Part shown: positions 8,191 through 14,390 of the stretch, piece by piece
Numbering within the stretch: the first letter of the stretch is position 1
Layout of the letters: the number at the start of each line of letters is the position of its first letter
NCBI RefSeq assembly: GCF_000317145.1
Contig: NC_019697.1
Location: 5,879,889 to 5,943,888 of the forward strand
Source: Chamaesiphon minutus PCC 6605
GTDB taxonomy: Bacteria > Cyanobacteriota > Cyanobacteriia > Cyanobacteriales > Chamaesiphonaceae
DNA: 64,000 bases
Reading direction: 5' to 3'
Notes under the pieces: generated by a model
Seen by the model: only the letters and a program-made list of their open reading frames with translations
What the model was told of the DNA's origin: nothing
The model's database searches: none
Translations under genes and position numbers: made by a program

Positions 8191-9867
8191 ATGCAAGCTC
8201 TTACCAAGATCGATAGTTCTCGCCAGCGGGAGATATTAGAAATCCTATTGCACCATGGCTGGGACTTCATGCGCCAAATCCTGACTATGGGCAAAGCCGT
8301 GGGTGGAGACGCGACAGCAGAGAATCGAGTCGATGTCCCACCACCAGAAATTCTCCGCAGTATTTTGGTCGATTTGGGTCCTGTTTATGTCAAGCTAGGA
8401 CAATTGCTCAGTACCCGTCCGGATCTGTTACCGCTGGAATATATCGAGGCTCTGAGCGAACTCCAATCGAATGTGCCGCCGATCGATTGGCGTGAGATCG
8501 AAACAATCTTGATCGAACAACTCGCGCAACCACCTTCAGAAATTTTCAGCCAGATCGATATTGTCCCTGTCGCCGCCGGATCGATCGCTCAAACCCATCG
8601 TGCAATTCTCAAAGATGGTCGGATCGTCGCCATCAAAGTCCAGCGTCCGGGGATCGATCGCTTGGTGACTAGGGATATTGCCATGATTAAGCAGATCGCC
8701 AAGCTGCTCTCTGGCACTGACTTTGGCAAACGTTACGACTTAGTTTCCCTCGCTGCCGAATTTAGTACCGCCCTCCAATCGGAGCTAGATTTCACTCAAG
8801 AAGCGCGCTATACAGAGGCACTCCGCCAAAATTTACTGGCGGGTAAGTGGTTTGACACCACCAAAATTATGGTGCCAGAGATCGATCGGCGGTTATCGAC
8901 TCAGAAAGTCTTGGTGCTCCAATGGTTGGATGGCGTACCAATTTTGGCCGCGCGGCTGACGGGTAAAAATCATGGCGGCGATATTCAACAGGAGCGTCAA
9001 GCACTCACCGTCCTATGTTTCCGCGCCTTCTTTCAGCAATATCTCGTCGATGGCTTGTTCCATGCCGATCCGCATCCCGGCAACCTTTTCTACCTCGACG
9101 ATGGGCGAGTCGCCGTTCTCGATTGTGGCATGATGGGACGACTCGATGCTCGCACCCAGTCGGCTCTAGTCGAAATGATTCTCGCGATCGTCAATGGCGA
9201 TGCCCAACGTTGCGCCCAAATTACCCTGCAACTGGCCGAACCCATGGGCGAACTCAATCTCTCTCGCCTAGAATGGGATTACGATCGCCTGCTGCACAAA
9301 TATAACAATATCAGCTTGCAGAATATGAATGCCAGCGAAGCTTTCGCCGAGATCCTTCAAGCTGCGCGCCGCAACAACCTGCGCTGGCCGAGTAATATCG
9401 GTCTATTTGCCAAATCCTTAGCCAATTTAGAGGGCGTCGGACGACAATTTAATCCCGAAGTCAATTTATTTGAAGAAGTTCGTCCGCTAATGAATGACAT
9501 GTTCCAGCGGCAACTTTTCGGCGACGATCTGATCCAATCGCTACTTAGAACGGGCTTAGAATTAAAAAATCTCTCGATGCAATCGCCGCGACAATTAGGA
9601 TTTTTACTCGATCGATTTAGCTCCGAAACGTTGAAGCTAAATATCACGATTAAAGACTTAGATGGCATCCAAAATAGCATCGATGATGCAGCTAATCGGC
9701 GATCCTTTAGTACGGTAGTCGGCTCTTTAGTCGTCGGAGCCGCGATCGTTTCGGCAAATGCCCAAACTTCACAATTGCAACTGCTAAGTAATGTGCTGTT
9801 TGGCACGGCAAGTATTCTAGGGTTATGGTTAATTGTGAAAATTATTAGGTCTGGAAATTTACTTTGA
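8191..9867 (+). CDS. ABC1/UbiB (AarF) family atypical kinase
   Basis: A 558-residue member of the ABC1 kinase-like family, whose members support quinone, prenyl-lipid and tocopherol metabolism in cyanobacteria and plastids. Diagnostic elements are present: KLGQ at 68-71, the Ala-rich loop AAGSIAQTH at 128-136 in place of a Gly-rich loop, ion-pair lysine K149 in VAIKV, HADPHPGN at 291-298, and D311 in DCG where canonical kinases have DFG. Two hydrophobic segments near the C-terminus (around 510-555) should anchor it in a membrane. Its last 23 bp overlap the end of the convergent LRR-kinase gene. Confidence 0.92.
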   Translation: MQALTKIDSSRQREILEILLHHGWDFMRQILTMGKAVGGDATAENRVDVPPPEILRSILVDLGPVYVKLGQLLSTRPDLLPLEYIEALSELQSNVPPIDWREIETILIEQLAQPPSEIFSQIDIVPVAAGSIAQTHRAILKDGRIVAIKVQRPGIDRLVTRDIAMIKQIAKLLSGTDFGKRYDLVSLAAEFSTALQSELDFTQEARYTEALRQNLLAGKWFDTTKIMVPEIDRRLSTQKVLVLQWLDGVPILAARLTGKNHGGDIQQERQALTVLCFRAFFQQYLVDGLFHADPHPGNLFYLDDGRVAVLDCGMMGRLDARTQSALVEMILAIVNGDAQRCAQITLQLAEPMGELNLSRLEWDYDRLLHKYNNISLQNMNASEAFAEILQAARRNNLRWPSNIGLFAKSLANLEGVGRQFNPEVNLFEEVRPLMNDMFQRQLFGDDLIQSLLRTGLELKNLSMQSPRQLGFLLDRFSSETLKLNITIKDLDGIQNSIDDAANRRSFSTVVGSLVVGAAIVSANAQTSQLQLLSNVLFGTASILGLWLIVKIIRSGNLL

Positions 9868-11167
9868 TTGCAGATAATACTCGCTCGATTTCTCTAAATA
9901 ACGGCCTCTTAGCAGGAATGGACTGTAAACAATCTTGGCATAACTTATTTAATGTCAACTTTGCTGGATTGTCATCTAGCAATTGACAGCGATCGAGTAA
10001 ATCTTCTAATAGACAACCAAATGCTCTGACTTCCAATCTTTCCAATGCCGTACCCAAGATCGGATCGTTACGATCGTAGCTAGAAGCGGCACCAAAATCG
10101 CCTAACAAGCTATGCCCACTTCGATTTACCAGAATATTGTGAGCGTATAAATCGCCGTGCATTATGCCTTGGGAGTGAAGACGATCCGCCGCCGCACAGA
10201 TCCCGATGGCGATTTTTAAAAGTTTGGCTACCGAAAAAGATGTCCCCGCAGCATAGGTATCTCTAGTACATGTATCCAAATTCGGCGGGTTGCCTAGATT
10301 GCGATAATCGGGGGGAATTAATGACAACATCAAACCCAATCTATCGTTAGGGCAATCGACAATTTTACCCAATGCACCAACCAAATGCGGATGTTCGCCA
10401 GCAGCCATACAAGCATTCATTTCATCTGCTGGTACACCATCGCTGGTCATCGCGCCTTTAAAAATCTTGATGGCGACATTAGTGGGCGGCTGCGTTGATG
10501 ACTCCCAGACACCCTTGGAAATCACCCCAGAAGCACCTTCACCCAAGGTATCCGAAAGAGTCAAATCTGCCCACGGAATGGTGGTTACAGTTGGCGATAG
10601 ATTCGCAATACAGCACGGATTGCCCGCATAAGCCAACCACGACAGCCGAGGCAAAGTAAATAACCAGTTTGGCAAAGATTCGAGGCAATTTGCCGACAGT
10701 CTAATCAGTTCTAAATTCTGACAAGCCGCCATTTTATCTGGCAGCGATCGCAATTGATTTCCAGCGAGCATTAATTTTTGCAAGCGTTGGAGTTTCCCGA
10801 TCGAATTTGGCAGCCGTTCCAATTTATTGTCCGTCAAAATCAACCACCTCAAATTGAGCGGTAATCTATTTTCGCCCACGATCTTAATTTTGTTAGATTT
10901 GAATCCTATCATGGATAAGCTCGGACAATCTGCCACTGCGCTAGGGATTTCCTCAAAATCGTTGTTACTTAGAAAGATAACTTTGAGCTGGTGTAGCCGA
11001 TCTAAATTCTCAGGTAAAGACCGTAAGTTATTATCAGACAGATTCAATATTTCTAAAGAATCTGCTAGATCGAAAATCTCAATCGGGAATTCTGTCAAAT
11101 TAGCAGCTAAATCTAGTCGTTTGATCCCCTGCAATTGACCAGAGCGCAGCAAGTCGATCGTTTCCAT
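9845..11167 (-). CDS. Leucine-rich-repeat protein kinase
   Basis: A 440-residue fusion. Residues 14-180 hold about seven leucine-rich repeats of the LxxLxLxxNxLxxLP type (for example LEILNLSDNNLRSLP and LQKLMLAGNQLRSLP). A compact protein kinase domain follows at about 203-435, with glycine loop LGEGASG (208-214), K234 in VAIKIFK, catalytic HGDLYAHN (337-344, proton acceptor D339) and DFG at 357-359. All catalytic residues are kept, so it should be an active Ser/Thr-type kinase. There is no membrane segment, so it is probably cytoplasmic, with the LRR part sensing or recruiting a partner. It meets the ABC1 kinase gene tail to tail with overlap. Confidence 0.9.
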   Translation of the reverse strand: METIDLLRSGQLQGIKRLDLAANLTEFPIEIFDLADSLEILNLSDNNLRSLPENLDRLHQLKVIFLSNNDFEEIPSAVADCPSLSMIGFKSNKIKIVGENRLPLNLRWLILTDNKLERLPNSIGKLQRLQKLMLAGNQLRSLPDKMAACQNLELIRLSANCLESLPNWLFTLPRLSWLAYAGNPCCIANLSPTVTTIPWADLTLSDTLGEGASGVISKGVWESSTQPPTNVAIKIFKGAMTSDGVPADEMNACMAAGEHPHLVGALGKIVDCPNDRLGLMLSLIPPDYRNLGNPPNLDTCTRDTYAAGTSFSVAKLLKIAIGICAAADRLHSQGIMHGDLYAHNILVNRSGHSLLGDFGAASSYDRNDPILGTALERLEVRAFGCLLEDLLDRCQLLDDNPAKLTLNKLCQDCLQSIPAKRPLFREIERVLSAIKVNFQT

Positions 11168-11243: not shown

Positions 11244-11423
11244 ATGCTCTGCAAATATCTATGCTGCCACCTTATATCTATCGTTCGAGCTTTACAAGAA
11301 GCTGAGTTAATCCAGAAACACGATCGACTCTGCGATTTAGCGGCGATCGAGATCGAGCCACACAAATTAGTTAGCTCCAGCGCGTTCGGTTTAATTACTA
11401 GTGAATTATCTATATTTGCGTGA
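11244..11423 (+). CDS. Possible small ORF, 59 codons
   Basis: An open frame starting MLCKYLCCHLISIVRALQEA lies between the divergently placed LRR-kinase start and the end of the response regulator gene, which it overlaps by a few bases. Its central part has charge patterning and codon use like neighbouring genes. No Shine-Dalgarno is seen and I recognise no family. It may be chance or a remnant. Confidence 0.2.
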   Translation: MLCKYLCCHLISIVRALQEAELIQKHDRLCDLAAIEIEPHKLVSSSAFGLITSELSIFA

Positions 11424-12069
11424 ATGAATCTGTGATATTTTGAGATACCCAGAGAGCGATTTGTAATCTGTCGCGTAAATTCAAACAAGTGAGAATATTC
11501 GTGACGTAGTTTTTGACAGTTCCTTCCGTCAGATGTAAATCTTTAGCAATTTCTCGATTGCTTTTACCCTTACCAATTTGCTTGAGAATTTCAATCTCAC
11601 TGTGATTGAAATGTTCTAAAATAGCTAATGTCGGCGATGGTGTTACCGCTCGTTCGGGAATGCGTGCGAATACTTTCAATGCGATCGCCGGATCTAGTTG
11701 TCCGAAACCGCGATCGAGACTGCGAATCGTCGTTGCTAACTGTTGGGATGGTGTACTTTTGAGGATATAGCCCAGCGCGCCATTTTGGAGCGACTGACAG
11801 ATATATTCATCTTCATCAAACGTCGTCAACACCATGATTCTAATCCACGGAAATCGCTGATGAATGACTTTTGTGGCTTCTACCCCATTACAGATCGGCA
11901 TTCGCACATCCATCAAAATTACGTCAGGACGTAGCGTTTCGGCAAGCAAAATTGCCTCTTCACCGTTGCCAGCTTCGCCAACAATTTCAATATCTGGTTC
12001 GAGGTTAATTAGTGCCGCTAATCCTTGCCTGAAAATAACTAGGTCATCAACCAATAGTAAGCGAATCAT
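11410..12069 (-). CDS. NarL/LuxR-family response regulator
   Basis: A 219-residue two-component regulator. The receiver (about 1-120) has D8/D9, phosphoacceptor D54 in ILMDVRMP, T82/T83 and K104. The C-terminal LuxR-type helix-turn-helix (about 152-205) reads EIEILKQIGKGKSNREIAKD then LTEGTVKNYVTNIL, the normal DNA-binding helix pair. It is the last gene of a same-strand unit whose first gene is a HisKA_3 histidine kinase, its evident partner. Two unknown genes lie between the pair. Confidence 0.93.
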   Translation of the reverse strand: MIRLLLVDDLVIFRQGLAALINLEPDIEIVGEAGNGEEAILLAETLRPDVILMDVRMPICNGVEATKVIHQRFPWIRIMVLTTFDEDEYICQSLQNGALGYILKSTPSQQLATTIRSLDRGFGQLDPAIALKVFARIPERAVTPSPTLAILEHFNHSEIEILKQIGKGKSNREIAKDLHLTEGTVKNYVTNILTCLNLRDRLQIALWVSQNITDSFTQI

Positions 12070-12148
12070 ACGTTAGTCGATCGTTGATAATTGAGGAGAT
12101 TGGTGATACCGATCGATAGTTAAATCACTTCACATTAAGTAGAGAAAA

Positions 12149-12544
12149 TTAATTGCGATCGTTTCGATCGGATTTAGCTATTCCTGTAAACCGTGAATAT
12201 TTTGCTAAGTTACTAGCAGCAGATGTAACAGCTATTAACCCCGTGTTAATATCTTCAAAGAAAATTACTCCGCCAATATGTTTGTTTGCGATGAAAGGTG
12301 CATGGTAAAATTGATATTCTTTAATGTAAATTGTTAAAATATCATCGATGTTGGTAGGTTTGCCGAAGATTTGTTGACATACCTGTGCGATGACATTCAA
12401 GAGAAATTCTTGTCGAACTGGCTCGCCGAGATCGCTAAACTCTGGGCGATCGCCAAATTCATCCATATAATATAACCAAATTTTAGAGAGATCTGTCTCT
12501 TTTTGCAGCTTTTCTTTGAGTTGGGATAATTTTTCGAGTTTCAT
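12149..12544 (-). CDS. Unknown protein (131 aa) inside a two-component unit
   Basis: A soluble protein of 131 residues with a charged, probably helical N-terminus (KLSQLKEKLQKETDLSKIW), an acidic middle (YYMDEFGDRPEFSDLGE) and a C-terminal part that looks beta-rich (HIGGVIFFEDINTGLIAVTS). No signal peptide or membrane segment is visible. I do not recognise the family. It lies 57 bp after the 197-aa unknown gene and 79 bp before the response regulator, all on one strand, which suggests co-transcription. Whether it serves the signalling system or is an inserted pair with its neighbour is open. Confidence 0.65.
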   Translation of the reverse strand: MKLEKLSQLKEKLQKETDLSKIWLYYMDEFGDRPEFSDLGEPVRQEFLLNVIAQVCQQIFGKPTNIDDILTIYIKEYQFYHAPFIANKHIGGVIFFEDINTGLIAVTSAASNLAKYSRFTGIAKSDRNDRN

Positions 12545-12601
12545 GAGTGTATACGAGATCTAGATATAAACGCTTATTGGTAAGTAGATACCTCTCGGTC
12601 A

Positions 12602-13195
12602 TTAGGATTTATCATCATCAATAACAAATCCTAATTCCTGTGCTTGGGAGAGTGTCAGTGGCGCGATTGCTGTTAAATCTGGCAACATTAATCGAGAGAC
12701 AGTATTAGCTTTATAGTCTCTGTAAAAAAGAATTGAATTAATAATTTGCCAATCATACTCTATCTCGACAAACTTGGGCGGCCACATATTAGTGATGATA
12801 TAGAGATAATATGAATGTTTTTCTTTGTAAATCAGAACTGCTGTTAACTCATCGAACCAAGCAATATAGCGAATGCGGCAACCAAAATAATAATTATATG
12901 ATTCAATACCTACACTCTTGCTAACTCCTTTATTATTAACATGGTAGATTAAGTAATAAATCTCGACAAAACCCCAGATATCTTCAGGTTTTTCCCATCG
13001 TTCGAGATAAACTATTTGCTTGTTGTCAGGATGAACGCTAGCTGCTTCTATTTCTCGCTCGAAACCTTCTCGATCGGTAAATACAATCTGACGATTCAGC
13101 AGTTTCGCGGCTAGTTCTATTTGTGACTTGTCCAACTCCAAGCCTAAATGATGTGTATCTGGATAAATTGGATTAGGGTTATTGGCGATATACAC
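12602..13195 (-). CDS. Unknown protein (197 aa) inside a two-component unit
   Basis: A 197-residue soluble protein starting at GTG, 34 bp after the histidine kinase gene. It is rich in aromatic residues, especially Tyr and Trp (WGFVEIYYLIYHV, SYNYYFGCRIRYIAWFDE, KHSYYLYIITNMWPP), in an alternating pattern suggesting a large beta-sheet. It ends with an acidic IDDDKS tail. I do not recognise the family, and no catalytic motif stands out. Position between the kinase and its regulator suggests a sensor accessory or a two-gene insertion. Confidence 0.65.
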   Translation of the reverse strand: MYIANNPNPIYPDTHHLGLELDKSQIELAAKLLNRQIVFTDREGFEREIEAASVHPDNKQIVYLERWEKPEDIWGFVEIYYLIYHVNNKGVSKSVGIESYNYYFGCRIRYIAWFDELTAVLIYKEKHSYYLYIITNMWPPKFVEIEYDWQIINSILFYRDYKANTVSRLMLPDLTAIAPLTLSQAQELGFVIDDDKS

Positions 13196-13229
13196 TGTGC
13201 TAGAAAATTATAGTTATCGAGCGACAATT

Positions 13230-14390
13230 TTAGCTAGATGCAGGTACGAATATTTTAATTCGGGTACCTCGTCCGACTTCACTATCGAGATTAAATTCTC
13301 CACCCAGACATTGCACGCGTTCTTTCATATTTCTTAAGCCAAACCCAGCGTGAGGGCGATCTAAGTCGAATCCTTTGCCATTGTCACAGATATCCAAAAT
13401 CGTACCGCGATTGACGATCGTACTCTCGATTGTAACTCGATTTGCGTGAGCGTGTTTCTGAATATTTGTCAGCGATTCTTGGACGATGCAGTAGAGCTGA
13501 TAGCTCGACTGGAGCGATAACGGCGGGAAGCGCACATCGACATGTACCTCAAATGGCAGGTTTTGCTCCGCTAGCGCGAAGATAGCTTCGGTGAGGTCAA
13601 AATTAGAACGCTTCATCGTTCCCAAGGCTTGGCGGACGTTATCGAGGGCTTGGGAGCTAAGTTTTTTGGCTAGATCGATCGATTGTTGCGCTCTTTCTGG
13701 CTCGGTGGCTTGGATTCTTTGCGCGAGTTCGATTTGCACGTCTAACGATGTGAGTGAATGTCCCAATGTATCGTGAATATCGCGAGCGATTCTATTGCGT
13801 TCTAAATCTGTCGCGAGAGTTTCTACTTGTTGCGACAGTCGATCTGCTTTTTGGCGCGACTTTTGTTCTTCCGTCCAAATAGTACCTAGTAACAAAACAA
13901 AAATAGAATTACCAAAATAACTGGCGGTGTAACCAGTAACTAGTCTGGGTGAATTTAAATATAGTTTGATATCGGTGTGCTGCACTCGATGGATAATTTC
14001 TGGGACGCGGATAGCATAGCTACTACTACTGACAATCCAACAAAACATCGCGATTGTAGCTACTTCTTTTCGAGGTAATAAAAAACATCCCTTCAATAAA
14101 AAAGTACCAAACAGACAAAAACTAGTAAACTCATAATAATCAGTAATGATGACGCTTAGCATTGATAGAATGATATAAAATCTTCTTTGCCAGAGCGGGC
14201 GATCGACAGGTAGAAATACGATCGATGGCGTAAATATCAACACAAATAAAATTGTATGTTCGAGCATTTGTGGAGATTTTTGCAAATGTGGATTTGCAAA
14301 ATTTGTCCAAATACTGAATGCTAATGCAAATAGCTCGATGACAAGGAGCGAGCGACGCATTTTAAGAGAAACTGGCGGTAAACTTGTCAC
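13230..14390 (-). CDS. Membrane sensor histidine kinase (HisKA_3, NarX/DesK type)
   Basis: A 386-residue kinase. The N-terminal 170 residues hold several hydrophobic segments (about 15-30, 43-62, 70-105, 110-125 and 150-172) and no obvious extracytoplasmic domain, as in membrane-state sensors of the DesK kind. The HisKA_3 box has IARDIHDTLGHS, with phosphoaccepting H206. The ATPase domain keeps N309 in QESLTNIQKH, DNGKGF (336-341) and GFGLRNMKER. The start is GTG; an ATG eleven codons later is an alternative. It probably phosphorylates the NarL-type regulator three genes downstream. Confidence 0.92.
   Translation of the reverse strand: MTSLPPVSLKMRRSLLVIELFALAFSIWTNFANPHLQKSPQMLEHTILFVLIFTPSIVFLPVDRPLWQRRFYIILSMLSVIITDYYEFTSFCLFGTFLLKGCFLLPRKEVATIAMFCWIVSSSSYAIRVPEIIHRVQHTDIKLYLNSPRLVTGYTASYFGNSIFVLLLGTIWTEEQKSRQKADRLSQQVETLATDLERNRIARDIHDTLGHSLTSLDVQIELAQRIQATEPERAQQSIDLAKKLSSQALDNVRQALGTMKRSNFDLTEAIFALAEQNLPFEVHVDVRFPPLSLQSSYQLYCIVQESLTNIQKHAHANRVTIESTIVNRGTILDICDNGKGFDLDRPHAGFGLRNMKERVQCLGGEFNLDSEVGRGTRIKIFVPASS

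Follow-up and report, generated by a model that had tools for sequence, protein, structure and literature searches.

Kinases of the HisKA_3 family autophosphorylate and pass the phosphate to an aspartate of a response regulator, which binds DNA through a LuxR-type helix-turn-helix. DesK of Bacillus subtilis, with its NarL/FixJ-type regulator, is the described system that comes closest to the two signalling genes considered here, and the two genes found between them are best compared with the cargo of heterocyst excision elements in hupL and with the small cyanobacterial genes XisI and XisH. The locus lies in a stretch of 64,000 nucleotides from Chamaesiphon minutus PCC 6605 (the window; contig NC_019697.1, positions 5,879,889 to 5,943,888), on a contig of 6,284,095 base pairs (bp) in a genome of 6.76 Mb and three contigs. 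On the minus strand, in order of transcription and head to tail, it encodes a membrane sensor histidine kinase (13230..14390), a protein of 197 amino acids without an assigned family (U197; 12602..13195), a 131-residue member of an uncharacterised cyanobacterial family (U131; 12149..12544), and a NarL/FixJ-type response regulator (11410..12069), separated by 34, 57, and 79 bp. A first, sequence-only reading had described this layout, with the regulator three genes from the kinase, and the open reading frames (ORFs) are where it placed them. We consider it likely that the functional unit is an ordinary pair of a membrane HisKA_3 kinase with a DesK-like catalytic half and a NarL-type regulator, into which U197 and U131 were inserted as cargo.

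Both signalling genes carry the domains that define a HisKA_3 kinase and NarL-type regulator pair, and they are kept as neighbors in relatives, as described below. The kinase, 386 amino acids long from a GTG start, matched the Pfam families HisKA_3 (E-value 2.9e-19, 69.8 bits against a cut-off of 24) and HATPase_c (2.2e-10, 41.4 bits against 26.4), while the regulator of 219 amino acids matched Response_reg (6e-24, 84.8 bits against 30.2) and the helix-turn-helix family GerE (3.6e-13, 49.4 bits against 23.5). We take His206, by its position in the RDIHD motif, to be the phospho-accepting residue of the kinase, and Asp54 in LMDVRMP to be the phosphate acceptor of the regulator. The sensor had been described as a DesK-like, multi-helix membrane domain, and the comparison with DesK is fair for the catalytic half of the protein. 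DesK is indeed the best match in the PDB, covering the homologous catalytic half (residues 174-384, E-value 8.3e-19), and the N-terminus contains three hydrophobic stretches (Kyte-Doolittle score above 1.4), as DesK also has a hydrophobic N-terminal region. However, the PDB matches do not extend upstream of residue 174, so that a homology of the sensor half to the thermosensing membrane region of DesK is only putative. A further difference from a DesK-type system is that kinase and regulator are separated by other genes. Among the NCBIfam models, NarL was the nearest to the regulator, but the cut-offs for named equivalogs were not reached (116 of 408 bits for UhpB, 152 of 250 bits for NarL), and therefore no specific function can be named for the pair.

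The sequence-only reading had proposed that the two middle genes could be sensory accessories, outputs, or an inserted pair, and had called for a comparison of gene order in related cyanobacteria. Searching 195 genomes of the order with the kinase gave matches at an E-value of at most 1e-30 in 85, of which the best 20 loci were examined (the window and L031-L049), with up to 1.5 kilobases (kb) of sequence beyond the kinase match, contig ends permitting, and with gaps extrapolated from the alignment ends. In 18 of the 19 loci other than the window, a regulator gene lies downstream of the kinase in the same orientation; in the exception, G054, it is on the opposite strand. In none of the 19, and so in none of the 18 codirectional loci, were U197 and U131 found between the two, and the gap was about 21 bp or less in 13 of the 18. 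Full-length orthologs of the kinase were present in 3 of the 8 other genomes of the genus (G090, 83%; G073, 73%; G164, 64%), and the regulators of these relatives were 97.7%, 87%, and 90% identical to that of the window, respectively. Because relatives keep the pair without U197 and U131, one of the two observations (the other being separate promoters) that the sequence-only reading had named as pointing to an unrelated insertion, insertion is supported; a functional link, which would require an accessory gene to be kept with kinase and regulator as a third component, is not. The linkage is real in the window, but it is not conserved.

Wider gaps were found in five relatives: 86 bp in G164, 232 bp in G090, 525 bp in G163, 608 bp in G162, and 647 bp in G073. 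The gap of G090 holds the C-terminal half of a XisI gene (Pfam E-value 4.8e-17; L051 9154-9327), that of G073 an Hlip-like ORF (Chloroa_b-bind, 8.1e-06), and that of G163 a glyoxalase-like ORF whose match (E-value 0.0011) is just under its cut-off. Neither the 86-bp nor the 608-bp gap contains a recognized gene, and no convincing ORF was seen in the latter. When the window strand was compared with G090 (L051) by blastn, similarity ended at 13222 and resumed at 12112, with nothing resembling U197 or U131 in between, which delimits a segment of 12113..13221 on the minus strand (borders approximate, as they are alignment ends) that is absent from the orthologous gap. In G090, the XisI remnant takes the place held by U197 and U131 in the window. 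As the wide gaps hold different and unrelated material in different relatives, the space between kinase and regulator appears to be a tolerant slot. XisI and XisH resemble the genes studied here in two respects, as the XisI remnant fills the homologous slot of G090 and as both are small cyanobacterial genes, like U131. U131 and U197, however, gave no XisI or XisH match in Pfam at E-values up to 1.

The two middle genes differ from the kinase and the regulator in base composition, with a GC content of 0.365 for U197 and 0.364 for U131, versus 0.427 for both the kinase and the regulator. All four frames scored as coding in codon usage (z versus base shuffles of 7.6 for the kinase, 4.4 for U197, 5.1 for U131, and 6.6 for the regulator), relative to a reference of 23 ATG-started window ORFs of at least 300 codons that probably includes the kinase itself. 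Since its frame scores as coding, U197, which has a GTG start, is very probably a real gene despite having almost no relatives. Among the 195 genomes of the order it matched its own genome only, and no relatives were found in the named genome collection, plasmids, phages, or viral contigs. In a sample of 386 genomes of the phylum, one likely distant relative was detected in G208 (24% identity, E-value 2.4e-6 for one genome). Five further matches in that sample (E-values of 5e-4 to 0.009) were dropped, as a two-row profile did not recover them. U197 is probably a fast-evolving or recently acquired gene.

That the two middle proteins match no known family, as had been noted from the sequence, was borne out by searches of Pfam, NCBIfam, PADLOC, and PHROGs, none of which gave a significant match. 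The best Pfam scores were far under the cut-off (SNaCT14 for U197, E-value 0.22; RNase HII for U131, 0.064), the only PHROG match of U197 had an E-value of 0.026, and U131 matched no defense or phage family in PADLOC or PHROGs at E-values up to 1. A U131 profile reached no better than 0.15 against PDB sequences. Structure comparison gave no assignment either. The model of U131 (predicted local distance difference test score, pLDDT, 84.8) was closest to the Tim21 part of a fusion (Z 5.4, 2.9 Å over 78 residues), which is not an assignment, and the monellin/cystatin-like and Ugi structures, mostly at Z 4.5-5.1, may reflect a common helix-plus-sheet arrangement. For U197, an all-beta, propeller-like model was obtained, with a best Z of 8.6 (6.2 Å over 165 residues) and many propellers among the matches; because the model has low confidence (pLDDT 65.8) and was built from two sequences, no fold is claimed. 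Neither protein contains a strongly hydrophobic stretch.

U131, by contrast with the near-orphan U197, belongs to a scattered family. The family occurs in 22 of the 195 genomes of the order, in 5 plasmid records, and 106 times in the named genome collection, where the 80 best matches were retained and the record titles point mostly to Nostocales; no relative was confirmed in viral contigs. None of the 21 genomes of the order that carry U131 besides that of the window gave a U197 match, so the two are not a conserved pair, and the earlier proposal of an inserted pair stands for the insertion but not for the pairing. Neighborhoods were collected for 99 loci, 94 of them with a recognized U131 ORF and a few representing the same record twice. 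The commonest neighbor families reached 10 of the 99 loci, with no family common to more, and no kinase- or regulator-like gene was found within five genes in 85 of the 94. Orientation showed little: among neighbors of at least 90 amino acids, the strand of U131 was shared by 32 of 52 on the upstream side and by 23 of 65 on the downstream side. Relatives were seen beside a helicase gene and near genes that, labeled by eye, resemble restriction and toxin-antitoxin genes.

At 10 loci, hupS is followed by a 5' fragment of hupL (recognized through PF00374), and U131 lies 180-284 bp beyond this fragment in the same orientation. A search with PF00374, run on 8 of these 10 genomes, placed the N- and C-terminal halves of hupL on one contig in 6, about 3.8 to 21.6 kb apart and with U131 between them by arithmetic on contig ranges, and on different contigs in the other 2. 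A second, unsplit match was also present in 7 of the 8, and the same search found hupL whole in two genomes that carry U131 away from the hup genes. Judged from this arrangement, the split genes with U131 inside look like hupL excision elements. In Nostocales, U131 was found just inside the 5' edge of the split gene (L118 3518-4692, L135 7149-8411, L139, L142, L145, L146, and L147). The next gene in L135, L142, L145, L146, and L147 was, by eye, an ATPase-like ORF of 516-519 amino acids, and in L139 a similar ORF of 526 amino acids lay one gene further. The relatives of U131 that lie between hupL halves in 6 genomes thus resemble the cargo of heterocyst excision elements, while the window U131 differs in lying in a two-component operon, between kinase and regulator, rather than in an excision element. 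A survey of hupL elements reports one hypothetical protein conserved in five of them (PMC4874684), which is possibly U131. Among the titles and abstract openings of literature on hupL elements, Chamaesiphon, accessory genes, and XisH/XisI, no report of the present locus was found. With the split-hupL, plasmid, and neighbor settings taken together, our guess is that U131 has a cargo or genome-conflict role.

The genus itself provides a second copy. In G073, a U131 that is 89% identical to that of the window lies outside the intact kinase-regulator pair, which has no U131 between its members; it is found upstream, past an Omp85 gene, and starts 8 bp after the stop codon of a 47-residue remnant of the kinase (L050 11837-11989). 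The blastn match between the two copies starts at the ATG and ends 3 bp beyond the stop codon. Synonymous divergence (dS) between the window and G073 was 0.45 for U131, versus 1.32 for the kinase, 1.31 for the regulator, and 1.59 for Omp85, values above 1 being near saturation. Likewise, 9 of 40 fourfold sites differed in U131, compared with 63 of 117 in the kinase (Fisher p 0.0008), 42 of 78 in the regulator (0.0015), and 141 of 232 in Omp85 (1e-5). The low silent divergence of U131, about a third of that of its neighbors, points to lateral transfer, which we regard as probable. The kinase remnant, over 48-49 codons only, has a dS of 0.27 to its intact sister and of 1.39 to the window kinase, and looks like a duplicate made in the G073 lineage.

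At the DNA level, U131 copies were compared for the borders of their shared sequence. Among 69 copies, 396 pairs were at least 85% identical; the pairs are not independent, and their median match extends from 47 bp upstream of the ATG to 2 bp past the stop. In 331 of the 396, the match ended within 150 bp on both sides, while some pairs matched on for hundreds of bases where their loci share a setting. Near-identical copies occur in unrelated settings. Within one Rhizonema assembly, two copies are 98.3% identical over 479 bp (L141 5089-5567 and L143 6427-6905) in different settings, the match beginning 67 bp upstream of the ATG and ending 1 bp after the stop codon, with no terminal repeats noticed. 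Nine pairs within single assemblies were compared: the match ended 1-3 bp beyond the stop codon in six, 13 and 20 bp beyond it in two, and in the last one a partner is cut short. For an insertion sequence or transposon with its own transposase, one would expect a transposase beside the copies, terminal inverted repeats, and a target duplication; what was observed is that no neighbor family recurs at more than 10 loci and that no empty site turned up. L111 was considered as a case of an exact ORF border and rejected, as its upstream sequence is that of L137 minus a short stretch, and it therefore looks like a deletion. The motif T(A/G)GTA(A/G)ATTTTTA occurred within 250 bp upstream in 20 of 68 relatives. 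It was not seen in the leader of the window U131, and that leader aligned with the leaders of four relatives no better than shuffles did (208 to 952 of 1,000 shuffles reached the score). Tentatively, then, U131 may be a nomadic single-gene cyanobacterial unit of about 0.48 kb, consisting of some 50-75 bp of upstream sequence and the ORF, with its right end near its own stop codon, which is moved by some agent and comes to rest behind a variety of host genes, among them hupL in excision elements and, on two occasions, a copy of the same Chamaesiphon kinase.

The layout of the window would also fit a soluble third component: U131, with or without U197, modulating the kinase or regulator after it was recruited in the Chamaesiphon lineage, and retained in the operon since. 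The shared orientation and short gaps, the lack of strongly hydrophobic stretches, by which both proteins could be cytosolic partners, and the position of U131 behind a copy of the kinase in G073 as well as in the window and behind another response-regulator gene in L065 and L068 all speak for such a role. We nevertheless find it unlikely, as both genes are missing from the pair at all 18 codirectional loci examined, as the intact pair of G073 lacks U131, which lies there next to a defunct kinase fragment, and as most U131 loci have no signalling gene nearby. That U197 and U131 are instead outputs, targets of the regulator inside its own operon and autoregulated with it, would suit the operon-like layout; it seems to us highly improbable, since neither gene is kept with the regulator at the 19 loci of relatives examined and since what fills the slot elsewhere is mutually unrelated. 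If the order kinase-U131-regulator were instead ancestral to the genus, with U131 lost from G090 and G164 and U197 arriving later, one could understand why only 8 bp separate the G073 remnant from U131 and why its final residues are those of the window kinase. Vertical descent does not, however, give U131 a dS of a third of that of the kinase, regulator, and Omp85, and the remnant looks like a duplicate of the G073 lineage, albeit over few codons, which makes this history very unlikely.

Several observations weigh against reading U197 and U131 as inserted cargo. The gene-order count covers only the best 20 of many kinase matches, and the near-saturation of silent sites affects the very genes with which U131 was compared. 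U131 adjoins a copy of the same kinase twice, past U197 in the window and behind the remnant in G073, a double association that chance insertion does not predict. Moreover, the remnant ends in VPASS-stop, as does the window kinase, while the intact G073 kinase ends in VPSNF-stop. These residues make a transfer of U131 by recombination at the 3' end of the kinase possible, and the association may also be a selected one. A kinase- or regulator-like gene does lie within five genes in 9 of the 94 U131-bearing loci, the G073 locus included, and at two loci of one genus (L065 8743-10091 and L068 9144-10360), U131 directly follows a different response-regulator gene on the same strand, about 23% identical to the window regulator. 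These few signalling neighbors may still keep an accessory role alive, and lineage-specific recruitment of U197 and U131 into signalling is possible. Finally, no clean empty site for U131 was found from the flanks of L144, L143, L098, and L140. The left flank of L144 (3700-4190) is a repeat that matches up to 47 times in a single genome of the genus and ends a few bases before U131; that of L143 occurred in 1 of 3 genomes, its own; and the right flank of L140 is a repeated element. The left flank of L098 was present in 24 of 25 genomes including itself, and in the 23 others similarity ended at least 300 bp before U131, which was absent from the stretch fetched there, with right-flank scraps of 27-53 bp in four.

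Under the cargo explanation, U197 and U131 would have entered the gap between kinase and regulator in the lineage of the window, as different material would have done in other relatives, and U131 would derive from a family whose members spread singly. In signalling, autophosphorylation of the kinase on His206 would be followed by transfer of the phosphate to Asp54 of the regulator, and then by DNA binding of the regulator through its LuxR-type helix-turn-helix. Because the genes share one orientation and are separated by short gaps, the promoter of the kinase would probably read through the cargo genes and the regulator. A promoter consensus scan returned 5 promoter-like sites, versus a mean of 10.6 in shuffled sequence, and one of these is on the minus strand, inside U131. 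From their absence in relatives, U197 and U131 are probably not needed for signalling by the pair. Just downstream of the regulator, the window also contains a gene for a leucine-rich-repeat protein with a C-terminal protein kinase domain (9845-11167, minus strand).

This locus illustrates that genes without an assigned function, even when closely linked to a two-component pair and in its direction, can be recent cargo instead of functional partners, and that gene order together with silent divergence in close relatives is the test that separates the two. Its interest lies in U131 more than in the kinase: a family without a name that spreads through cyanobacteria one gene at a time and is also present in split hupL genes, where developmentally excised elements are located.

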